Source: Deltaproteobacteria bacterium
GTDB lineage: Bacteria > Desulfobacterota > BSN033 > UBA1163
DNA: 9,368 nt
Reading direction: 5' to 3'
Assembly (NCBI GenBank): GCA_016875155.1
Contig: VGSD01000076.1
Span: 1 to 9,368 of the forward strand
The notes beneath the pieces are model-generated. The model ran no database searches. It saw nothing but the letters and a program-made list of their open reading frames with translations, and was not told where the DNA came from. The position numbers and the translations under genes were made by a program. Shown here piece after piece: positions 94 to 8,861 of this stretch; the first letter of the stretch is position 1, and each line of letters begins with the position of its first letter.

Positions 94-384
94 ATGGAAA
101 TAAAGGTCGTTGAAATTAAGTTGGTGCATGGAGATAAGCCATTGAAGGCCCTCGTTGCGATTGAGGTAGGGGGTATCATCATTCGGGATATCCGGGTCGT
201 TAAGGAGAACGGTAGGAGGCCCGTGGTGCTCGCCCCTCAAAATTCCTGGAAGGGCGATGACGGCCAGATTCGATATAGGACGGTGGTCACATTCCCCGAT
301 GAAGTGAAGGGCGAAATCGATTTTGTTGTCCTTAAGAGATACATTGGGGAACTGGAGAAATGCAATGCGGACTCAACACGGTGA
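94..384 (+). CDS. spoVG: SpoVG-family nucleic-acid-binding protein
   Basis: The product is a 96-aa protein whose first ~80 residues follow the SpoVG pattern. An N-terminal strand (EIKVVEIKLV) leads to KALVAIEVGG, the hallmark IIRDIRVV near residues 29-36, then VVLAP, a charged DGQIRYRTVV stretch and FPDEVKGEID. SpoVG proteins of Bacillota and spirochaetes are small DNA- and RNA-binding regulators, first known for sporulation and septation effects. Here the gene sits directly before, and overlaps by 20 nt, a phage-type replication gene, so a role in early regulation or replication of the element is likelier than sporulation. The ATG at 94 gives the full domain, although its SD (AAGA) is weak. 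The last ~15 residues lie in the overlap and extend past the usual SpoVG end. The family call is from motif memory, not a search. Confidence 0.8.
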   Translation: MEIKVVEIKLVHGDKPLKALVAIEVGGIIIRDIRVVKENGRRPVVLAPQNSWKGDDGQIRYRTVVTFPDEVKGEIDFVVLKRYIGELEKCNADSTR

Positions 385-1294
385 GGGATCGGAACTCGAT
401 CTTCTCGGAGAATCGGGATGGATCCAGCTCCATCGGAAATTAAAAGACTCGGCTGTGTTCCAAAACGAAGGACTCCTTAAGGTTTGGATATGGTGTTTGC
501 TTGAGGCCAATCACAAAGACAAGTGGGTATCGGTTAAAACGGGAAAGGGAACCACAGAGGTTTTGGTAAAGCGTGGCCAGTTCATATTCGGTAGGAAATC
601 GGCAGCCAAGAGGTTAAGGATGAAACCCTCAACGATTCAAGGCCGAATGCAAAAGTTAGTAAATATGCAAAATCTCGTCATCAAACCCGTCACCCATTAT
701 TCAATGATAACGATTTGTAATTATGAACTTTATCAAGGAGACGGAAGGGGTGATCCGTCACCCAAAGATTACGAAAAGAGGCTTCCACACACACTTTTTG
801 AAAAAGCCTCAAAAACCGTCACCCAAAACCACGCCATAAGCCCTCAATTTAATGAGGATTCTCGCCGCATTCCAAACAATAACCCGTCACCCATCCGTCA
901 CCCAACCGTCACAAACAATAAGGATAATAATGAAAAAAAGAAAAAAAACTCTCTCTCCGTCGAAGATTTTATAGAACCTGTGTCCGCCTCTCTTGGTTTG
1001 GTGAAACCTAATGATCTCTTCGATATCTTCTGGGAGGCTTATCCTAAAAAGGTTGGTAAGAAGGAGGCGAGGGAGTCGTGGGGAAAAATTAAGATCACCC
1101 GGGAGCTTTTGGAAAAAATGCTTAACACGATTAAAAAGTTTACCGGTTCAGATCAATGGATCGCCGAGGGAGGTAGGTTTATCCCGCACCCTGCGACATG
1201 GTTAAACCAGGGACGCTGGGATGATGAGGTTACGAAACCTTACGATCCTTACGAGTATCTACGGAGGGACGTTAAGGAGATAGGGTATGGATAG
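365..1294 (+). CDS. Phage O-like replication initiator / replisome organizer
   Basis: The product is 309 aa with three parts. Residues 18-124 form a winged-helix module of the phage replisome-organizer type, starting GWIQLHRKL, with RGQFIFGRKSAAKRL and ending NYELYQ. A polar linker follows (about 125-215). Residues 222-290 carry the C-terminal module seen in many phage replication proteins (FWEAYPKK, KKEARESW, then FIPHPATWLNQGRW). Such proteins bind the phage origin and bring in helicase or helicase loader, as lambda O does. The gene itself contains six iterons and an A-rich tract, so the protein probably binds inside its own gene. I chose ATG 365 because GGAG lies 7 nt upstream; an in-frame TTG at 323 would add 14 residues lacking domain character. 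The start overlaps the SpoVG gene by 20 nt, suggesting coupled translation. Confidence 0.8.
   Translation: MRTQHGEGSELDLLGESGWIQLHRKLKDSAVFQNEGLLKVWIWCLLEANHKDKWVSVKTGKGTTEVLVKRGQFIFGRKSAAKRLRMKPSTIQGRMQKLVNMQNLVIKPVTHYSMITICNYELYQGDGRGDPSPKDYEKRLPHTLFEKASKTVTQNHAISPQFNEDSRRIPNNNPSPIRHPTVTNNKDNNEKKKKNSLSVEDFIEPVSASLGLVKPNDLFDIFWEAYPKKVGKKEARESWGKIKITRELLEKMLNTIKKFTGSDQWIAEGGRFIPHPATWLNQGRWDDEVTKPYDPYEYLRRDVKEIGYG
687..915 (+). repeat. Six iterons (CCGTCACCCA) inside the replication gene
   Basis: The 10-mer CCGTCACCCA occurs exactly at 687, 755, 816, 884 and 895, with a sixth copy, CCGTCACAAA, at 906. All are on the same strand. The first gaps are 68, 61 and 68 bp; the last three copies are spaced exactly 11 bp, about one helical turn. 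Copies fall in all three codon phases of the host gene (second, first, second, first, third, second) and encode VTH, PSP, VTQ, PSP, RHP and VT. Selection is therefore on DNA, not protein. A small inverted repeat (CCTCA 842-846, TGAGG 853-857) lies between copies three and four. The array resembles the iterons in lambda O. Confidence 0.85.
911..952 (+). other. A-rich tract next to iterons, candidate DNA-unwinding element
   Basis: Directly after the last iteron comes a ~42-nt stretch that is more than 80% A+T on inspection, with long A-runs at 932-938 and 940-947. In lambda-type and plasmid origins an A+T-rich segment flanking the iterons is where strands first open. It encodes only the lysine- and asparagine-rich part of the linker, so the protein can tolerate it. 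Together with the iterons it makes 687-952 the best candidate replication origin. Confidence 0.65.
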
Positions 1295-1429: not shown

Positions 1430-1451
1430 ACCGAGAAAGGAGAATTTTTCC

Positions 1452-1604
1452 ATGAACGAAAAACAAACGCAAGCAGTAGTAAGGCAAGAGCTAAAACAAT
1501 TTTATTCGGATCTGGCCATTGGGAAATGGAAGGGCCGAGAGAAGGAAGCCGAGGCCGAGGAGATACGATTGTTGAAGGCACTCGGCGTGAACGTAAAGCA
1601 GTAA
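1452..1604 (+). CDS. Stand-alone scaffold C-terminal-domain-like protein
   Basis: The product is 50 aa. Its last 42 residues (9-50) align without gaps with the last 42 residues of the probable scaffolding protein at 5412-6221, with 27 identities counted by eye (64%). Shared features are RQ-L, FY-D, W-GREKEA, EEIRL and a C-terminal LGV-VKQ. The nucleotide sequences are much more divergent, so the resemblance is at protein level and old. In scaffolding proteins the C-terminus often contacts the coat protein. A free copy could compete for that contact, alter capsid size, or assist assembly; none of this is shown. ATG 1452 is chosen because AAAGGAG lies 9 nt upstream. An in-frame ATG at 1416 would start inside the second G-tract repeat and is less likely. 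Confidence 0.75.
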   Translation: MNEKQTQAVVRQELKQFYSDLAIGKWKGREKEAEAEEIRLLKALGVNVKQ

Positions 1605-1675: not shown

Positions 1676-1882
1676 ATGGAACAAACTATCAGCGAGCAGG
1701 GTGAAATGTCCAGACAGCAACTTCTAACGATTGAGGAGTTAGCGGGGCTCCTTCAGGTCCCGAAAAGTTGGATCTACGACCGGACACGCCAATCCAAGAC
1801 AAACGGATTCCCAACGATTCGGGTGGGGAAGTATTTGCGATTCAATTACCAAGGTGTATTGGAATGGCTTCAGAATCAGTGA
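1676..1882 (+). CDS. AlpA/excisionase-type HTH DNA-binding protein
   Basis: The product is 68 aa. Residues 16-67 match the short winged-helix fold of AlpA, excisionase and MerR-like HTH_17 proteins. LLTIEELAGLLQVPKSWIYD is the helix-turn-helix, FPTIRVGKYLRF is the wing, and VLEWLQ is the terminal helix. Such proteins act as excisionases or as transcription activators of mobile elements; AlpA activates satellite and cryptic prophage operons in Gram-negative bacteria. The SD AGGAGG lies 5 nt before the ATG. The gene stands between the replication block and the packaging block, so control of the downstream operon is plausible. A similar HTH is encoded at 8457, near an integrase remnant, and is the better excisionase candidate by position. 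Confidence 0.75.
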   Translation: MEQTISEQGEMSRQQLLTIEELAGLLQVPKSWIYDRTRQSKTNGFPTIRVGKYLRFNYQGVLEWLQNQ

Positions 1883-1972: not shown

Positions 1973-2467
1973 ATGATCGAGATTGAAAAAATCTGGACCC
2001 AGGAAGGGATTGACCAGGCAAGAGATCAGCTCAGATCCGCTTCAGCGAGAATCGAGGAAGCCATTGCCAGGGCCGCAAAGATGGCTGAGGATGCCGAGTT
2101 GGAGGTTCGGGAGATCAACAAAAAGATTCTCCCCGGTCTCTTGGTCAAACAGTTTTTGGGTGAGAAGATTTCCAAGGGCGAGGTTGAAAAGTTGAAAAAA
2201 GCCCGGGAGCGCCGGGTTGAGCTTCGAGAAGTTTTGGAAGATCACCCTCTTTTACACCGAGGTTTGGAATCCGAACCCCCCAGGCTTAACAGCATCGGTC
2301 GAGAGATCACAAAGAGAGAACGCCATGTCCAGTCCTACGAAAAGATCAAAAACTCCCTCAAAGATCGCTATTCTCCCACATTGGCGCAAGATCTCCTGGA
2401 TAAAGCCAAATTCCTAAGCTGTGAATTTGATGCGGTGCAATTTTTAAAGGATCTCAAGGAGAATTAG
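1973..2467 (+). CDS. Coiled-coil protein of unknown function
   Basis: The product is 164 aa and not recognised. It is rich in Glu, Lys and Arg. Long helical, coiled-coil-prone stretches cover about residues 10-90 (SARIEEAIARAAKMAEDAEL, EKLKKARERRVELREVLED) and 110-160. No signal peptide, membrane segment or catalytic motif is visible, and there is one cysteine near the C-terminus. The SD AAGGAGG lies 5-6 nt before the ATG. It precedes the terminase genes, separated from them by a perfect inverted repeat. A structural, DNA-organising or packaging-accessory role is possible, but nothing in the sequence selects one. Confidence 0.7.
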   Translation: MIEIEKIWTQEGIDQARDQLRSASARIEEAIARAAKMAEDAELEVREINKKILPGLLVKQFLGEKISKGEVEKLKKARERRVELREVLEDHPLLHRGLESEPPRLNSIGREITKRERHVQSYEKIKNSLKDRYSPTLAQDLLDKAKFLSCEFDAVQFLKDLKEN

Positions 2468-2513: not shown

Positions 2514-3089
2514 ATGGCCAAACCCAAAATAGATAGAGTTCAATTATCTCGGATGCTTAAAAGTAGTAAATCCCAGAAGGAAATTGCTCAATTCTTTCGG
2601 GTATCTGAGGCGGCGATTTCAAGGGCCAAGAAGGAACTCAACATCAACGTCGTCAAGGCCGTTGCCTTAGAGCGGGCTCACCAGGTAGTCGATCAACATC
2701 TTGACACCATCGGCCAACTTCAAAGGATCAATCAGGATGCGAACGAACTCCTTGACCTCCTCATGAGATGGAACCGGGGAGATGAAGGGGCATTGCAGAT
2801 TTTGGAAGGCCAGGTCCGGAAAGTCAGGGTTCGGGGTGAAGAAAAAGAGGTTGAAGAATTCAGGTTCAAAGACCCCAGAGAACTGGCTTTGAAGGCCATG
2901 CAAGAGATTCGAGGACAACTCAGCCTGCAACTCGATATTTTTAAGGCTCTCTATGATTTACATGCTATTGCGGAATTTCAAAAAGAAGTCTTAAGCGCGA
3001 TCGGAGAAGTTGAACCGAATGTTAGGGACCGCATCATCCAGAGGCTCAAGGAAAGTAGAGCTCTTCGACAATCTGTTTCAATCAATTAA
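2514..3089 (+). CDS. terS: Probable terminase small subunit
   Basis: The product is 191 aa. Residues 20-42 form a helix-turn-helix (SQKEIAQFFRVSEAAISRAKKELN) suited to DNA recognition. The rest is predicted mostly helical: a middle part ending in NELLDLLMRW, a basic patch RKVRVRGEEKEVEEF, and a C-terminal helical region with LALKAMQEIRGQLSLQLDIF, the type used for oligomerisation. Small terminases recognise viral DNA at the packaging start and feed it to the large subunit. The main support is position, since the gene overlaps the start of an unmistakable large terminase by 71 nt. SD AAGGA lies 8 nt before the ATG. It could also be a separate HTH regulator, but size, HTH position and context favour TerS. 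Confidence 0.7.
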   Translation: MAKPKIDRVQLSRMLKSSKSQKEIAQFFRVSEAAISRAKKELNINVVKAVALERAHQVVDQHLDTIGQLQRINQDANELLDLLMRWNRGDEGALQILEGQVRKVRVRGEEKEVEEFRFKDPRELALKAMQEIRGQLSLQLDIFKALYDLHAIAEFQKEVLSAIGEVEPNVRDRIIQRLKESRALRQSVSIN

Positions 3090-4596
3090 CCAGACCTTCG
3101 GGAACAAGGATAATCTATCTTTTCACGAATGGGTTACAAGGTCCTCCCTCATCCTCGACGGGAAACCCTTCACCTTCGAGCGCCATGAATACTTGATGGT
3201 TCCTTATCAGGACGATCATCCCCATATCGTTGAGATGAAAGCAGCGCAGATGGGGCTGACCTCCAAGGCCATGCTTAAGACCATCTTCTGCCTTCAGTTC
3301 AAGCGATACCGTGGAGTCCTTTACCTCTTTCCCTCACGATCGGACGTTCTCGATTTCTCAAAAGGCCGGATCTCCCCCTTGATCGAAGAGAATGAGGATA
3401 TAGGCAAAATGGTTCGAGATACCGACAGCGCCGGTATTAAGGCCATTGGGAACGGGTTTCTTTATCTTCGTGGCATGAAGTCGAGGGTTGGTCTTAAATC
3501 GGTCCCGGCAGATTTCATCATATTCGATGAACTTGATGAAGCGCCGCAGAATGCTGTTGATATGGCCCTGGAGCGAATGGCCCACAGCGAATATAAGGAG
3601 GTTCTTAAACTCTCAAACCCAACTCTCCCTGACTACGGGATCGATAAAGCCTTCCAAGAAACCGATCAAAGATATTGGCTTTTAAGGTGTGAGAAATGCG
3701 GAGAGCATACCTGCCTTGAGGATTCCTTCCCTGATTGCCTCTTGGAAATTGATGGAAGGGTTATCCGGGCCTGCTCAAAATGCAAAGCAGAGTTAAACCC
3801 TGCCCTTGGAGAATGGGTCGCAAAGAAACCTTTGATAACCGACAAGCGAGGCTACCATTACTCACAACTCTTTTCCCAATTCGTTTCTCCCGCCGAAATC
3901 CTCCATCAATACCGAACTACAACAAACCTCCGGGATTTTTTCAATCTTAAAATCGGCGTTGCCTATGTCGAAGCCGAAAACCGCCTCAGCATTCAGGAGG
4001 TCCTTTCTCTTTGTGGTTCGGATGGAATTGTCCAAAGCGATCCAGGTCCCTGCTTTATGGGTGTTGACCAGGGTAAGGACCTTCATGTCGTAATCGCAAA
4101 GAAACATCCCCAGACGGCAGGAAAGATCATCCACCTGGGCGTTTACATAGATTGGGAGGAGTTAGACCGACTGATGAAAAACTTCAACGTCATTCGGTGT
4201 GTCGTCGATGCTTTGCCTGAAACACGGAACGCCAGAGCCTTTGCGGAGAGGCATAAGGGGAAGGTCTTTTTAAACTTCTACAGGGAGTTCTTTAAGGGTG
4301 ACTACAAGTGGGACGAGGCGAATATGACGGTGGTCTGTAACCGGACGGAAAGCCTTGACGCCAGCCATAACGAAATTATGACCGGTCAAATTGCCCTCCC
4401 GAAGGAATGCGAGATCGTGGGAGAGTTCGCTAAGCACCTTCACAATGTTGCGAAGAAGTTGGAGGAGGACGAAGAAACCGGTAACAAGCGTTACGTCTAT
4501 GTCAAACTCGGAGCGGACCATTTTAGGCACGCTTTTAATTACGAATCCATGGCCAGGCGAAGTTGTCCGAACTTCTTATTTCCAGATTTTACTTAA
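3019..4596 (+). CDS. terL: Terminase large subunit, GpA family
   Basis: The product is 525 aa from ATG 3019. This is the packaging motor and DNA-cutting enzyme, of the lambda gpA type. The variant Walker A region is MKAAQMGLTSK (73-83). A motif with the LYLFPSRSD pattern follows, then Walker B FIIFDELD (166-173) with its catalytic Asp-Glu pair. KLSNPTLPDYGI resembles the coupling motif. A zinc-ribbon-like pair of CxxC sits at 224/227 and 252/255. The nuclease domain begins MGVDQGKD (347-354) with a likely metal-binding Asp. The protein is shorter than lambda gpA (641 aa) but all core motifs are present, so it looks intact. The start is uncertain: TTG 3010 is an alternative, and no in-frame ATG follows soon. 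The gene overlaps the small subunit gene, consistent with coupled translation. Confidence 0.9.
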   Translation: MLGTASSRGSRKVELFDNLFQSINQTFGNKDNLSFHEWVTRSSLILDGKPFTFERHEYLMVPYQDDHPHIVEMKAAQMGLTSKAMLKTIFCLQFKRYRGVLYLFPSRSDVLDFSKGRISPLIEENEDIGKMVRDTDSAGIKAIGNGFLYLRGMKSRVGLKSVPADFIIFDELDEAPQNAVDMALERMAHSEYKEVLKLSNPTLPDYGIDKAFQETDQRYWLLRCEKCGEHTCLEDSFPDCLLEIDGRVIRACSKCKAELNPALGEWVAKKPLITDKRGYHYSQLFSQFVSPAEILHQYRTTTNLRDFFNLKIGVAYVEAENRLSIQEVLSLCGSDGIVQSDPGPCFMGVDQGKDLHVVIAKKHPQTAGKIIHLGVYIDWEELDRLMKNFNVIRCVVDALPETRNARAFAERHKGKVFLNFYREFFKGDYKWDEANMTVVCNRTESLDASHNEIMTGQIALPKECEIVGEFAKHLHNVAKKLEEDEETGNKRYVYVKLGADHFRHAFNYESMARRSCPNFLFPDFT

Positions 4597-4605
4597 GAGG
4601 GTTCT

Positions 4606-5259
4606 ATGGAAAAAATAATTATCAAGGGAGTTACCCACAACGGTTTGTCGATAATCAAAAATCACGAAGGCGAGGGGAGCGTAGAGGAAACCTGGTCTTT
4701 TCGGGAAATCAGGATCGGACTCCATTGGCCCTCTGCCGGATCACCTGGTTATTTCTGCCTTGTTGGACAGGGCAGCATAAAAACCTTTGACAGCAATCAT
4801 CCGTTACGCCTCCTGCGAGAGAGTGAAGAGATTCTTCCCTCTAAACTATTTGAGAAGATGTGTGATGTTGCGGGTACGTTTGAATGTCAGGAGATCTTCT
4901 GTGATCTCTCTGAAAAGTTTAGAGGATATGTTTTGAATTTTCGTGATTTCAAGAGAAAGGAGAGGAGGCAGCAAGACATATTCCTGAGACAAGCCCCTTA
5001 TCATCAAGAATTTGGTCACGGAATCTTGACCATCAAAGATTGGCTCGGACGCAACGCCTTGGTTATTCCGAAGGGGACGATCGTTGCCCAACAACTTGGC
5101 TCTATCACCGATGGTAACTTGGCGGCGAGTGATGCAAGCGAAAGGTTTTATGCCATCGATGCTCTACGCCATGTGGTGTCAGCCTTTGGAGTCCATTTCT
5201 CTATTTCACACCATGGAAATCTTAATTCTGCTGCTCCACCGTCAGGAGCATGGCATTAA
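4606..5259 (+). CDS. Unknown protein following the large terminase
   Basis: The product is 217 aa and not recognised as a named family. It begins 10 nt after the large terminase stop with SD AGAGGG and is followed by an intrinsic terminator, so it closes the packaging transcript. Visible patches are WSFREIRIGLHWP (31-43), a CDLSEK stretch near residues 99-104, a basic FKRKERRQQ segment, and FYAIDALRHVVSAFGVH near the C-terminus. The last resembles the helix following the final acidic residue in terminase nuclease domains, so an RNase H-like or terminase-accessory fold is a weak inference. No signal peptide or membrane segment is seen. It is too small to be a portal protein. Confidence 0.7.
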   Translation: MEKIIIKGVTHNGLSIIKNHEGEGSVEETWSFREIRIGLHWPSAGSPGYFCLVGQGSIKTFDSNHPLRLLRESEEILPSKLFEKMCDVAGTFECQEIFCDLSEKFRGYVLNFRDFKRKERRQQDIFLRQAPYHQEFGHGILTIKDWLGRNALVIPKGTIVAQQLGSITDGNLAASDASERFYAIDALRHVVSAFGVHFSISHHGNLNSAAPPSGAWH

Positions 5260-5411: not shown

Positions 5412-6221
5412 ATGACAGATGTGATCGAGCAGGTGAAAGCGGCTGAGGAAAAGGCTGATAGGATTTGGCAAGAGGTGTACGGGGAAAAGGGGGACGAAAG
5501 GGCCCGTGAGCCGGAAGCCCCTAAATCTGAGGTTGAACCGGAAGATAATTATATTCCGATCATGACTTTTCAACTCGGAGAGCAGGGCCGCAAGATCAGC
5601 CAACTCGAAGAAAAGATTACGGAGCTTTCAAGGTTCAAAGAGGAACCAAAGCCAGAGACAAAGCATACCGAAGAACATGAATCGGTTAGATATTTCAAGA
5701 CCGAGTATCCCGACATAGCAGACGGAGTCCAGGAACTCGTTAAGTCGATGGTCGGCCAGCTCGAAAACGAAGTCGATACAAAACTCAAAAAGGTCGATCA
5801 GGACGTCACGAAAGTCAACGAGGATACGGTCAAGAAAGAGAAGAATACGTTCTTGGCAAGCCTCGATGGGGATAAAGAGATCGGCGAGGATTGGCGCACG
5901 ATCAATAACGACCCCGAGTTCATCGAATCGCTCCAGGAGATCGAACCCTATTCGGGCAGAATTAAACATGAACTCCTGATGGACGCCTTCAACGGAATGG
6001 ACACCGAGAGGACGGCCCGGTTTTTCAGGGACTTTCAAAAGGGCAAAACGGCTCCCAAGTTAGATACCGAGAGGCCAAATGATGCTCCCATCGTGACCCG
6101 ACAGGATCTCAGGAGGTTTTATGAGGACGTAAGGACGGGTAGATGGATCGGCAGGGAAAAGGAGGCTGGCCTTGAAGAGATCAGGCTTATTAAGGGCCTT
6201 GGAGTCCAAGTGAAACAATAG
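5412..6221 (+). CDS. Probable phage capsid scaffolding protein
   Basis: The product is 269 aa, strongly charged and rich in Glu, Lys and Asp, with no cysteine. Helical stretches include residues 3-25, 57-75 (EQGRKISQLEEKITELS) and a long coil at about 105-145 (LENEVDTKLKKVDQDVTKVN). A more globular part follows near 150-215 (FLASLDGDKEIGEDWRTINN, HELLMDAFNGMDTERTARFF). The last 42 residues (228-269), with FYEDV, GRWIGREKEA and EEIRLIKGLG, form a compact basic C-terminus shared with the 50-aa protein at 1452. Acidic coiled-coil body plus small basic C-terminal coat-binding domain is the usual scaffold design, and position after terminase fits. No major capsid gene follows. SD AGGAGG lies about 9 nt before the ATG. 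The call rests on architecture and context. Confidence 0.6.
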   Translation: MTDVIEQVKAAEEKADRIWQEVYGEKGDERAREPEAPKSEVEPEDNYIPIMTFQLGEQGRKISQLEEKITELSRFKEEPKPETKHTEEHESVRYFKTEYPDIADGVQELVKSMVGQLENEVDTKLKKVDQDVTKVNEDTVKKEKNTFLASLDGDKEIGEDWRTINNDPEFIESLQEIEPYSGRIKHELLMDAFNGMDTERTARFFRDFQKGKTAPKLDTERPNDAPIVTRQDLRRFYEDVRTGRWIGREKEAGLEEIRLIKGLGVQVKQ

Positions 6222-6233
6222 GGAGGGTTTAAA

Positions 6234-7595
6234 ATGAATATTCTATTAATTCAACCACCACGCAAACAGTTCTTGGGGGGCGGCATTGATTACTGGGAAC
6301 CGTTAAGTCTTGAAACTGCTGTAAGCGAATTACCTGATCACCACAATATCGTGCTGTTCTGCCCGGGGATACTACCGAACATACCCATTGAGGATTTGCT
6401 TAGCAAATCTCAGTTTGATATTGCGGCAATTACCGGCTTTGGGGGCGATGAGGCCCAAATTTATGAAATTTGCAGAAAAATCAGGAAAAATTCCCCAGAA
6501 ACAAACATTGTTGTAGGGGGCTGGTGGGCAACGATATATCCTCATGCTTTCTTTAATCCGATGATTGACTTTATCGTTTATGGTGAGGGGGAACTAACTT
6601 TTCGGGACCTTGTCCAATACCTGGAGAAGAATAAATCCCTTTCGGAGATAGATAGCGTAAAGGGTCTTTACTATCAGGCCGACAACGGATTCTTCCACTT
6701 CACCGGGAAACGTCCATCGCCAGACCTGGCCACACTCAATCCACCGCGTCGAGATCTGTTTGAGCCGTTTCGTATAAAAATCACTGCTGCAATACGGGAA
6801 AAAAATCCCAACTTTAGGAGTTTCTATCTCATCCAAACAACACGGGGTTGCAATCATCGATGCGATTTCTGTTCAGTATGGTCCCTTTTTGAAGGAAAAG
6901 TAAGACGTAAGACCCGTGATCAACTCGAACGTGAACTCAACTTCATCCCCAATGATGCCTTTATTGATTTCGCGGATGACAATTTTTTGATGTCTGGCGA
7001 TTGGGTTCGGGATATAGCCGGTTTGCTTAAGGGAAAGAATTTCTGTGGCAATTTGGCGTGTTTTGCACGCGTCGATGATATTGCGAGAAATCCCAAATTG
7101 ATCGAGGCTTTGGCGGAAGTTGGGTTAAAAAGTGTGTTTGTCGGATTTGAAACCTTTGAGGATGGAGATCAGGTGTTCTCCAAAAACATACCGTTTAATC
7201 AACACCAAGAGGTAGTCAATATCCTGCATCAAAACGGCGTTATGGTGATAGGTTCTTTTATCGTAGACCCTGGGTGGGACAAAGAAGATTTTAAAAGATT
7301 TGCCAATTACCTCCTCACCACCAAAATCGATGAAATATCACTCCAGGTTTTAATTCCTTTACCAGGAACCAGGCTTTACGAAAAGACAAAAAGAACTATT
7401 GTGGGCACAAGAAACGCGGAACTTGGCCATATCCAAAGCATTTTACCAACCAGACTGGATCCCAAAGAATTTGTAAAAAAGGTGCACGTTTTACTTGAAT
7501 TGTGCGCGGGAATAGAGATGAACAAGAAAGTGTTTATGGGTTCCGAAGATAGTTTAAAGACGTTGGGGGAGAGGTGCTTGAAAAGTTTGGAATGA
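6234..7595 (+). CDS. B12-binding-domain radical SAM enzyme (class B type)
   Basis: The product is 453 aa and complete. Residues 1-150 form a cobalamin-binding Rossmann-type domain, starting MNILLIQPP, with VVGGWWAT (Gly95-Gly96) and YGEGE (117-120). The radical SAM core carries the cluster motif CNHRCDFC, with Cys206, Cys210 and Cys213, followed by FIDFADDNF and GLKSVFVGFETF. Enzymes of this layout use a [4Fe-4S] cluster, S-adenosylmethionine and usually methylcobalamin to methylate unreactive carbons or phosphorus or to rearrange rings; the substrate here is unknown. The start is ATG 6234 with GGGAGG upstream, 12 nt after the scaffold stop, so the gene reads as part of the scaffold transcript. 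It takes the place of a major capsid gene. By eye it is more A+T-rich than its phage-type neighbours, suggesting separate acquisition. Confidence 0.9.
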   Translation: MNILLIQPPRKQFLGGGIDYWEPLSLETAVSELPDHHNIVLFCPGILPNIPIEDLLSKSQFDIAAITGFGGDEAQIYEICRKIRKNSPETNIVVGGWWATIYPHAFFNPMIDFIVYGEGELTFRDLVQYLEKNKSLSEIDSVKGLYYQADNGFFHFTGKRPSPDLATLNPPRRDLFEPFRIKITAAIREKNPNFRSFYLIQTTRGCNHRCDFCSVWSLFEGKVRRKTRDQLERELNFIPNDAFIDFADDNFLMSGDWVRDIAGLLKGKNFCGNLACFARVDDIARNPKLIEALAEVGLKSVFVGFETFEDGDQVFSKNIPFNQHQEVVNILHQNGVMVIGSFIVDPGWDKEDFKRFANYLLTTKIDEISLQVLIPLPGTRLYEKTKRTIVGTRNAELGHIQSILPTRLDPKEFVKKVHVLLELCAGIEMNKKVFMGSEDSLKTLGERCLKSLE

Positions 7596-8145: not shown

Positions 8146-8307
8146 ATGGAGAGAGTGGGTGTTTACTTGACGGAAACTGAGATTAAGAAATTGAGGGGGA
8201 TTCAGAAAAAAACGGGTCTATCAGTAGCCGAATTGATCCGGCGAGCCGTAGATACCTGGCTTGAAGAATATGAGAAAAAGGAGAAGGGTAAGAAATTGTC
8301 GGGGTGA
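8146..8307 (+). CDS. Ribbon-helix-helix (CopG/Arc-like) regulator
   Basis: The product is 53 aa. It has the full ribbon-helix-helix pattern: a short strand (RVGVYLT, residues 3-9), a first helix (ETEIKKLRGIQKKTG), the turn and a second helix (SVAELIRRAVDTWLEEYE), then a lysine-rich tail. Such proteins dimerise, insert the paired strand into the DNA major groove and usually repress their own promoter. The gene has its own strong promoter, an SD GGGGAG 8 nt before the ATG, and a terminator-like hairpin 34 nt after the stop, so it is a self-contained unit. Ribbon-helix-helix proteins can be antitoxins, but no toxin gene is adjacent. A repressor role for the element is inference. Confidence 0.8.
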   Translation: MERVGVYLTETEIKKLRGIQKKTGLSVAELIRRAVDTWLEEYEKKEKGKKLSG

Positions 8308-8456: not shown

Positions 8457-8861
8457 ATGTCCGAGATTGAAAAACATGAATCCGGGGTGACTCAAGGGGT
8501 CATGCTCACCATAAAGCAGATAGCCCAGAGGCTTCAGGTTGCGGAAGATACCGTCTATAAGCACTGGCGCGAACTCGGAGGGTTTAAGGTCGGCGGGTCA
8601 ATCAGGTTTGATTGGGAGCGCACCCGTGAGCGTCTATTCAAAGGGGCAGAACAAGAAGAAAAATTGGTATTATCAATTTATGGTGGACGGGCAATACCAC
8701 CGGGGCGGAGGATACCCGACCCAAAAATCCGCAAGGGACGCCGAATTAGAGGCTCGACGATCTTTGAGCGCATCCCCGACCGACATGGCCTTCTGGGAGG
8801 TTTGTCAGAAATATCTGGATCGGGCGGTAGCAAAAAATCCATGACCAGAGAAAGGAGGTGA
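8457..8861 (+). CDS. HTH excisionase-like protein with read-through tail
   Basis: The product is 134 aa, but only the first ~61 residues look like a real protein. MLTIKQIAQRLQVAEDTVYKHW (16-37) is a helix-turn-helix of the excisionase/AlpA type, followed by a wing FKVGGSIRFDW and a short helix RTRERLF. From about residue 62 the frame runs for 73 codons across the integrase fragment in a different reading frame. That tail (GRAIPPGRRIPDPKIRKGRR and onward) has the Arg/Gly/Pro bias of an unselected frame. The stop codon lies within the next gene's SD. An HTH gene directly before an integrase is the classic xis-int pair. The SD (AGAGGGG) is moderate. Loss of the natural stop, or a frameshift near 8626-8650, could explain the tail. 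Confidence 0.65.
   Translation: MSEIEKHESGVTQGVMLTIKQIAQRLQVAEDTVYKHWRELGGFKVGGSIRFDWERTRERLFKGAEQEEKLVLSIYGGRAIPPGRRIPDPKIRKGRRIRGSTIFERIPDRHGLLGGLSEISGSGGSKKSMTRERR
8626..8844 (+). pseudogene. Truncated tyrosine integrase, arm-binding domain only
   Basis: From GTG 8626, with GGGAG about 8 nt upstream, a 72-aa frame begins SVYSKGQNKKKNWYYQFMVD and continues HRGGGYPTQKSARDAELEARR, the pattern of the N-terminal arm-type DNA-binding domain of phage tyrosine recombinases. It then enters the start of the core-binding domain (TDMAFWEVCQKYLDRAVAKNP) and stops. The rest of the core-binding domain and the whole catalytic domain with its Arg-His-x-x-Arg and Tyr residues are missing; intact enzymes have about 300-400 aa. 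It is nested inside the HTH frame at 8457-8861. It is probably a deletion remnant, leaving the element without a visible integrase. A functional arm-site-binding peptide is a less likely alternative. Confidence 0.7.

Follow-up and report, generated by a model that had tools for sequence, protein, structure and literature searches.

Why should one stretch of DNA encode the C-terminal domain of what appears to be a phage scaffold protein twice, once at the end of a full-length gene and once as a small protein of its own? In the 9,368-nt stretch analysed here (the window, with all of the features described below on its plus strand) the free-standing copy occupies positions 1452..1604, where translation from ATG 1452 to the stop at 1604 gives MNEKQTQAVVRQELKQFYSDLAIGKWKGREKEAEAEEIRLLKALGVNVKQ, a protein of 50 aa; the second copy forms the end of a 269-aa protein encoded at 5412..6221. 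The ORF listing gives the 50-aa protein within a 62-aa ORF starting at ATG 1416, yet ATG 1452 is favoured as the start because a likely ribosome-binding site, AAAGGAG (1436..1442), sits 9 nt 5′ of it and would be intragenic if translation began at ATG 1416. Residues 9–50 of the small protein align without gaps with residues 228–269 of the larger one (encoded at 6093..6218), with 27 of 42 positions identical (BLASTP of the pair, E 3e-17), so that the ORF, its coordinates and the match described in the earlier note are confirmed. The strong divergence of the DNA is likewise borne out: 70 of 126 nucleotides and only 7 of 42 codons are identical, the codons differ at 12 first, 11 second and 33 third positions out of 42, and 20 of the 27 residues common to both copies are encoded by different codons. 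This pattern had been taken to imply selection on a separate small protein, a claim that does not carry over as it stood, since the synonymous divergence also fits purifying selection in a former full-length scaffold. Between the two copies dN is 0.31 (Nei–Gojobori) and dS is not computable, and a dN/dS ratio between them could not tell selection acting on the small free-standing protein apart from that on a scaffold ancestor.

The divergence may in fact predate the separation of the small gene, because the 50-aa protein is not closest to the local scaffold. Over 41 residues it shares 28 with P0035 and 28 with P0036, 26 with the local scaffold and 24 with P0034, where P0034–P0036 are relatives of the 269-aa protein at 66, 65 and 47% respectively; the scaffolds of the window, P0034 and P0035 share 31–32 of these 41 residues with one another. 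That the small gene is a simple, recent duplicate of the one lying 4 kb from it is rejected on these grounds, and the 50-aa piece appears from the residue identities to be either an old duplicate or a segment captured from a related scaffold.

Identity of the domain

No family in Pfam, PHROGs or NCBIfam was matched by the 50-aa protein, and tblastn against the phage collection returned only three matches for it, at E 3–8. The 269-aa protein matches phrog_13678, a family of unknown function (E 9.4e-9), and over most of its length the type of scaffold present in locus L114 (E 1e-16). When viral contigs were scanned with a profile made from five copies of the domain, 258 pattern matches were obtained, 46 of which were confirmed as loci, comprising 39 distinct domain sequences. 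In all 46 the domain is C-terminal, in ORFs of 186–400 aa with the match stopping 3–24 residues before the end, and in 44 the next gene, 0–91 nt downstream, encodes a protein of 301–346 aa recognized by a capsid-protein profile; the contig ends in one of the other two and a 68-aa ORF comes next in the other. The capsid proteins of L004, one of these 46, and of L110, from the set of loci collected through the large terminase subunit (TerL), are major head proteins (phrog_267), while Rhizobium phage RHph_TM3_14A presents the same scaffold–capsid order with the capsid gene annotated. Given this gene order in relatives, together with the homology, the 269-aa protein that the earlier note called scaffold-like is therefore referred to here as a scaffold, and we regard it as highly probable that the 50-aa protein is the C-terminal domain of such a scaffold. 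Within the window itself no capsid gene follows either the 50-aa or the 269-aa gene. The idea of a general DNA-binding module, which the earlier note had set against a scaffold origin, is rejected, the relatives being C-terminal parts of long ORFs that adjoin a capsid gene.

Against a profile from which both window sequences had been left out, the 50-aa protein reached 49.2 bits and the full scaffold of 269 aa 39.5 bits, so that the similarity of the small protein to the scaffold domain exceeds chance. With a profile that included both window copies, a six-frame search of 50 sequences separated the weakest scaffold copy (E 1.3e-14) from the next match (E 1.3). The AF2 model of the 50-aa protein (41 alignment rows, mean pLDDT 87.4) predicts two helices, residues 3–22 and 30–43, flanking a G-K-W-K-G-R-E turn. 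The residues invariant in the 41-row alignment (G24, G28, R29, E30 and E32) are retained in both window copies; at five further, nearly invariant positions the 50-aa copy retains F17, D20 and A43 and has lost G47 and R48.

In the scaffold of phage P22, gp8, a C-terminal helix-turn-helix described as a U-shaped hook contacts the coat (PMC12005531). A hairpin is also predicted for the 50-aa protein and, by this analogy and from its identity as a scaffold domain, it may bind capsid protein; the P22 hairpin differs in being part of the scaffold, and no relationship of sequence or fold between the two was found. A sequence profile search of solved structures with the domain gave no relative (lowest E 2.2), and in a Foldseek search the hairpin model had no match below E 2.8 and none to a scaffold, a two-helix hairpin being too simple for a meaningful structure search. 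The domains of L002 and L001 had no tblastn match in the phage collection, where the 269-aa protein matched four Rhizobium phages (E 7e-4); scans of the viral contigs with the window scaffold, with the 217-aa protein described below and with scaffold alignment A10 confirmed no relative.

The window and its TerL relatives

The window opens with genes for a SpoVG-like protein of 96 aa (94..384; PF04026, E 1.2e-5, 25.8 bits, below the cut-off of 29.6) and for a replication initiation or DnaD-like helicase-loader protein (365..1294; phrog_9474, 1.4e-25; phrog_2514, 2.1e-25), the ORF of which is open from 323 and was queried from 362, one codon before the likely start at 365. Beyond the 50-aa gene follow a 68-aa AlpA-like or excisionase-family HTH protein (1676..1882; PF12728 HTH_17, 3.3e-7, above cut-off, with TIGR01764 just below), a 164-aa protein of unknown function (1973..2467; no Pfam match above cut-off and no PHROG match below E 0.2) and a probable small terminase subunit (TerS) of 191 aa (2514..3089). 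The last is matched weakly by phrog_57 (E 0.003) and just below cut-off by the Trp repressor-like PF01371; relatives of it occur 16 times in TerL loci, in 12 cases immediately upstream of TerL. TerL itself (3019..4596; phrog_675, 3.7e-107; PF05876, 5.6e-21) lies in an ORF open from 3010 and was queried from 3022, one codon after the likely start at 3019. It is followed by a 217-aa protein (4606..5259) for which AF2, with 40 of 43 listed relatives, predicts an RNase H-like fold (mean pLDDT 89.3); the best Foldseek matches of the model are terminase large subunits and nuclease domains (8dgc_E, 2.4e-4; 2wc9, 6.1e-4), and the predicted fold resembles that of terminase nuclease domains. Proteins of this kind occur in 48 loci including the window, often following TerL, and no library names them.

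Directly behind the scaffold, where a capsid gene would be found in its relatives, the window has a gene for a B12-binding radical SAM protein (6234..7595; PF04055, 2.5e-17; PF02310, 5.9e-8), which matched many radical SAM families, met no NCBIfam cut-off and is probably cargo. The remaining genes encode a small protein that is ribbon-helix-helix-like by eye (8146..8307; no NCBIfam match), a second, AlpA/MAD1-like HTH protein (8457..8861; NF047737, 3e-7, and TIGR01764, 6.4e-5, both below cut-off) and, overlapping the latter gene, an integrase-like N-terminal fragment (8539..8844) recognized by eye, with a best BLAST match of E 0.87 and no catalytic part seen. Portal and capsid queries found no tblastn match in the window below E 0.04, and portal and capsid profiles matched none of its ORFs. 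Rfam and tRNA scans of the window gave no match; promoter-like sites are as many as in shuffled sequence and terminator-like sites fewer.

The 83 TerL loci whose gene order was compared, the window among them, show two settings: one is phage-type, and in the other TerL, often accompanied by a 217-like protein, stands among replication genes and integrases. Of the 82 other loci, 36 were classed as phage-type through sequence clusters taken as portal or capsid, some of which were checked against a library. From the 46 loci with no such cluster 29 were chosen as satellite-type, the other 17 being distant or very short or resembling phages by eye; L120, which is among these 17, has a portal. Profiles covering one portal family and one capsid family matched nothing in the 29 satellite-type loci, many of them on short contigs. 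PHROG and Pfam scans took in 66 of 157 neighbour proteins, some from loci outside the 29, and among the 25 commonest of the 79 PHROG and of the 36 Pfam families listed there is no structural family, the commonest being primases, helicases, AAA, ERCC4 and similar proteins.

One of these relatives is an integrated element with defined ends. In L059 (4467–20019) a 15,507-bp element lies between perfect 46-bp direct repeats of the 3′ end of tRNA-His and carries a primase/helicase, an ERCC4-type nuclease, TerL, a 217-like protein and an integrase, behind which comes tRNA-His; for several of its proteins, one of 606 aa among them, none of the families tried gave a match, and neither portal nor capsid profile matches any part of the locus. 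An integrase stands directly before a tRNA in 4 of 13 loci scanned (L059, L057, L061 and L066). In L066 the tRNA end recurs as a 21/23 match (E 0.003) and TerL is split over three ORFs; searches for such a repeat in L057 and L061 were negative, and L050, L058, L077 and L081 have an integrase with no tRNA in view. Capsid-less, tRNA-integrated TerL relatives of this kind lend support to the satellite-like setting that the earlier note had envisaged. Two long proteins encoded downstream of TerL, in L059 (14345–16165, 606 aa) and in L069 (8251–13809, about 1850 aa), have no PHROG match and are perhaps, as a guess by eye, ejection-type virion proteins. L061 carries a CAP12/Pycsar TIR protein. In L110, L112 and L114 the order is TerS–TerL–217-like protein–scaffold–capsid, with no portal-profile match in the 8–16 kb examined.

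The highest listed TerL identities to the window, 73–75%, include those of the capsid-less loci L061, L066 and L077; the TerL of L080, a phage with portal and capsid, is likewise 73% identical. A TerL tree of 63 of the 83 loci (sequences shorter than 400 aa, identical copies, most distant ones and L066 were dropped) places the window as sister to phages L101 and L104 (95/95), with satellite-type and phage-type rows intermixed, the satellite label being given here to eight loci with an integrase, of which L066 was then dropped, and to the window. Nearest to the window by path are L069, L079, L056, L061 and L077, and the highest identity is to L061 (73%). Such intermixing, and a sister position beside phages, would allow for more than one origin of capsid-less TerL elements, the window possibly being derived from a phage independently. 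The 217-aa protein too is closest to its counterparts in L101 and L104 (36 and 32%).

A domain of the KWKGREKEA type is absent from all other TerL loci, eight of which have a related scaffold with a variant C-terminus, and 11 genomes holding such TerLs gave one weak domain match (E 0.037); the domain is thus not a feature of the TerL family. No resident helper prophage with the domain was seen in these 11 genomes. In the phylum of genome G005, TerL was found at E 1e-40 in 3 of 395 genomes, so that such elements are not common there, and among the 8 genome contigs whose TerLs come closest to that of the window, 7 are labelled Desulfobacterota or Deltaproteobacteria.

A possible role in capsid assembly

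We lean towards regarding the window as a terminase-bearing satellite, or as the remnant of one. The fuller mechanism that we favour over the alternatives, plausible while falling somewhat short of an even chance, is that a free capsid-binding hairpin from such a capsid-less, satellite-like element competes on the capsid protein of a helper phage. The element would replicate with its own initiator, and its TerS, TerL and nuclease-like 217-aa protein would package its DNA into procapsids whose portal and shell are supplied by the helper. The 269-aa scaffold and the free hairpin would both dock on the scaffold-binding site of the helper's major capsid protein, where the hairpin, having none of the rest of the scaffold, would fill sites without linking subunits. 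Fewer normal helper shells would then be formed, giving smaller or satellite-controlled shells, or a lower yield of helper. As a bare hairpin could not bridge subunits, interference with the helper scaffold is at least as likely as a redirection of size. Several observations speak against this mechanism: the integrase of the window is fragmentary, and the element may accordingly be a defective remnant; its TerL and 217-aa protein appear by sequence to side with phages L101 and L104; and a stand-alone copy of the domain is proven in no independent genome.

The last point bears on a proposal of the earlier note, that stand-alone copies might recur beside replication and AlpA-like genes, for which no instance emerged among 49 loci, 16 phage records and 89 TerL loci. 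Two domain copies occur in the window alone, each of the 49 loci having a single copy by six-frame profile search. Of 20 phage records, some of them fragments, 16 are clearly domain-positive with one copy apiece; L104, L123 and L098, with variant scaffolds or none in view, gave weak matches only (E 0.001–0.06), in L104 at two places, and L113 gave none. The 89 TerL-derived loci (L050–L138; ORFs of at least 40 aa) hold no copy, and the one match of the domain profile in the 395 genomes of the phylum of G005 lies in a 378-aa frame, by eye a scaffold adjoining a capsid gene. A profile search of 5.8 billion proteins, limited by rule to about 28–88 aa, yielded 32 small domain proteins among 100 candidates. 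Only P0001 and P0002 are securely free-standing, and both are the window's own gene, P0002 being identical to its product and P0001 a variant with a 35-residue tandem duplication in which the reading frame is kept. Twenty-five of the 32 are on contigs shorter than 4.2 kb, where a cut gene and a short gene are indistinguishable; P0017, P0022, P0024, P0025, P0028 and P0032 are on longer contigs, and several of these look frame-shifted by eye. Another, P0008 (75 aa), looks by eye like a scaffold N-terminus joined straight to the C-terminal domain, possibly a mini-scaffold or an assembly artefact.

With recurrence unproven, the 50-aa gene might alternatively be a relic, the end of a second scaffold gene stranded between the replication and AlpA-like genes and, expressed or not, functionless. 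A piece derived from another phage would be expected not to be closest to the local scaffold, as is the case here, the synonymous pattern could have been inherited from a full-length gene, and P0001 carries a tandem duplication within the gene. That duplication nevertheless preserved the frame over its 35 residues. Moreover the ATG falls at the edge of the domain and follows a good ribosome-binding site; by eye no scaffold sequence is recognizable in the upstream in-frame translation, and scaffold queries found only the domain there; the conserved residues are intact, and the left-out profile gives the small protein a higher score (49.2 bits) than the full-length copy (39.5 bits). We hold a relic to be unlikely, if a serious alternative.

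To a similar degree improbable is that the window belongs to a temperate phage, or to a deletion derivative of one, in which the 50-aa protein tunes the phage's own assembly or, expressed early, poisons the assembly of capsids by superinfecting relatives. The clustering of TerL and the 217-aa protein with L101 and L104 would agree with this, as would L110, L112 and L114, which also run from TerL through a 217-like protein and scaffold to capsid with no portal between; the 50-aa gene lies in what is apparently an early region, and a prophage-encoded block to virion assembly is on record (PMC10884400). A phage origin in this sense fits less well with a window that shows neither a portal or capsid gene nor a clear remnant of either, that has a radical SAM gene in the capsid gene's place, and in which less than 4 kb separates the end of TerL (4596) from the integrase-like fragment (8539). 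Least probable by far is that the hairpin is a regulator that binds its own scaffold, the AlpA-like protein or nucleic acid rather than capsid protein: the position of the gene between the replication and AlpA-like genes and the basic turn (GKWKGRE) would suit such a role, but all 46 relatives are C-termini of long ORFs, 44 of them adjoining a capsid gene, and the 50-aa protein matches no DNA-binding family.

Comparison with known systems

A detached hairpin competing for helper capsid protein would most closely recall CpmB of the Staphylococcus aureus pathogenicity island SaPI1, a 72-residue satellite protein that carries the scaffold's C-terminal capsid-binding motif (RIIK) and competes with the scaffold of phage 80alpha (PMC5644958). 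Both are small proteins bearing the C-terminal capsid-binding segment of a scaffold, presumptively so in the window, where competition is likewise proposed; the segment is shared with the helper scaffold in the case of CpmB and with the local scaffold and its relatives in that of the 50-aa protein. The differences are equally marked. The 72 residues of CpmB include a dimerisation domain at the N-terminus as well as an RIIK hook, whereas the 50-aa protein has a GKWKGREKEA turn and no RIIK, its single predicted two-helix hairpin filling all 50 residues with no separate dimerisation domain, a further point against the mechanism proposed; the element in the window also encodes a full-length scaffold and TerL. 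We propose that the resemblance would be one of working rather than of membership, the 50-aa protein being a reduced analogue of CpmB. The statement in the earlier note that it knew of no described system of this exact form has to be qualified in view of CpmB. If the proposed mechanism is correct, a bare coat-binding domain would suffice to influence how capsids assemble, achieving what CpmB does by simpler means and in a type of element that packages its own DNA without building a shell.

Other satellites modify assembly from outside the shell: Sid of P4 and TcaP of PLE act on helper coat protein as external scaffolds (PMC10945586), unlike the protein of the window, which is a domain of an internal scaffold family. 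With regard to packaging, some SaPIs are described as bringing only a small terminase subunit, and capsid-forming PICIs as bringing motor and shell; the latter, like the Streptomyces satellites MulchRoom and MiniFlayer, have their own TerS, TerL, portal and major capsid protein (PMC10690885). TerL and, probably, TerS are common to these elements and the window, in which portal and capsid were not found. In the literature consulted, mostly open-access, we recognized no description of capsid-less satellites with their own TerL. A more general proposition, which we consider rather doubtful, is that integrative satellites with their own TerS, TerL and nuclease-like protein borrow the portal and shell of a helper, with one lineage possessing in addition a complete scaffold and a detached coat-binding competitor that seizes or poisons the helper's capsid assembly. 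Parasitism could then draw on packaging motor and shell as independent units, the motor being brought here without the shell. Helper-embedded PICIs have been described (PMC10111431) and satellite families reviewed (PMC11389934); among the traits of PICIs the window has the AlpA-like and replication genes, together with what by eye is a fragment of an integrase.
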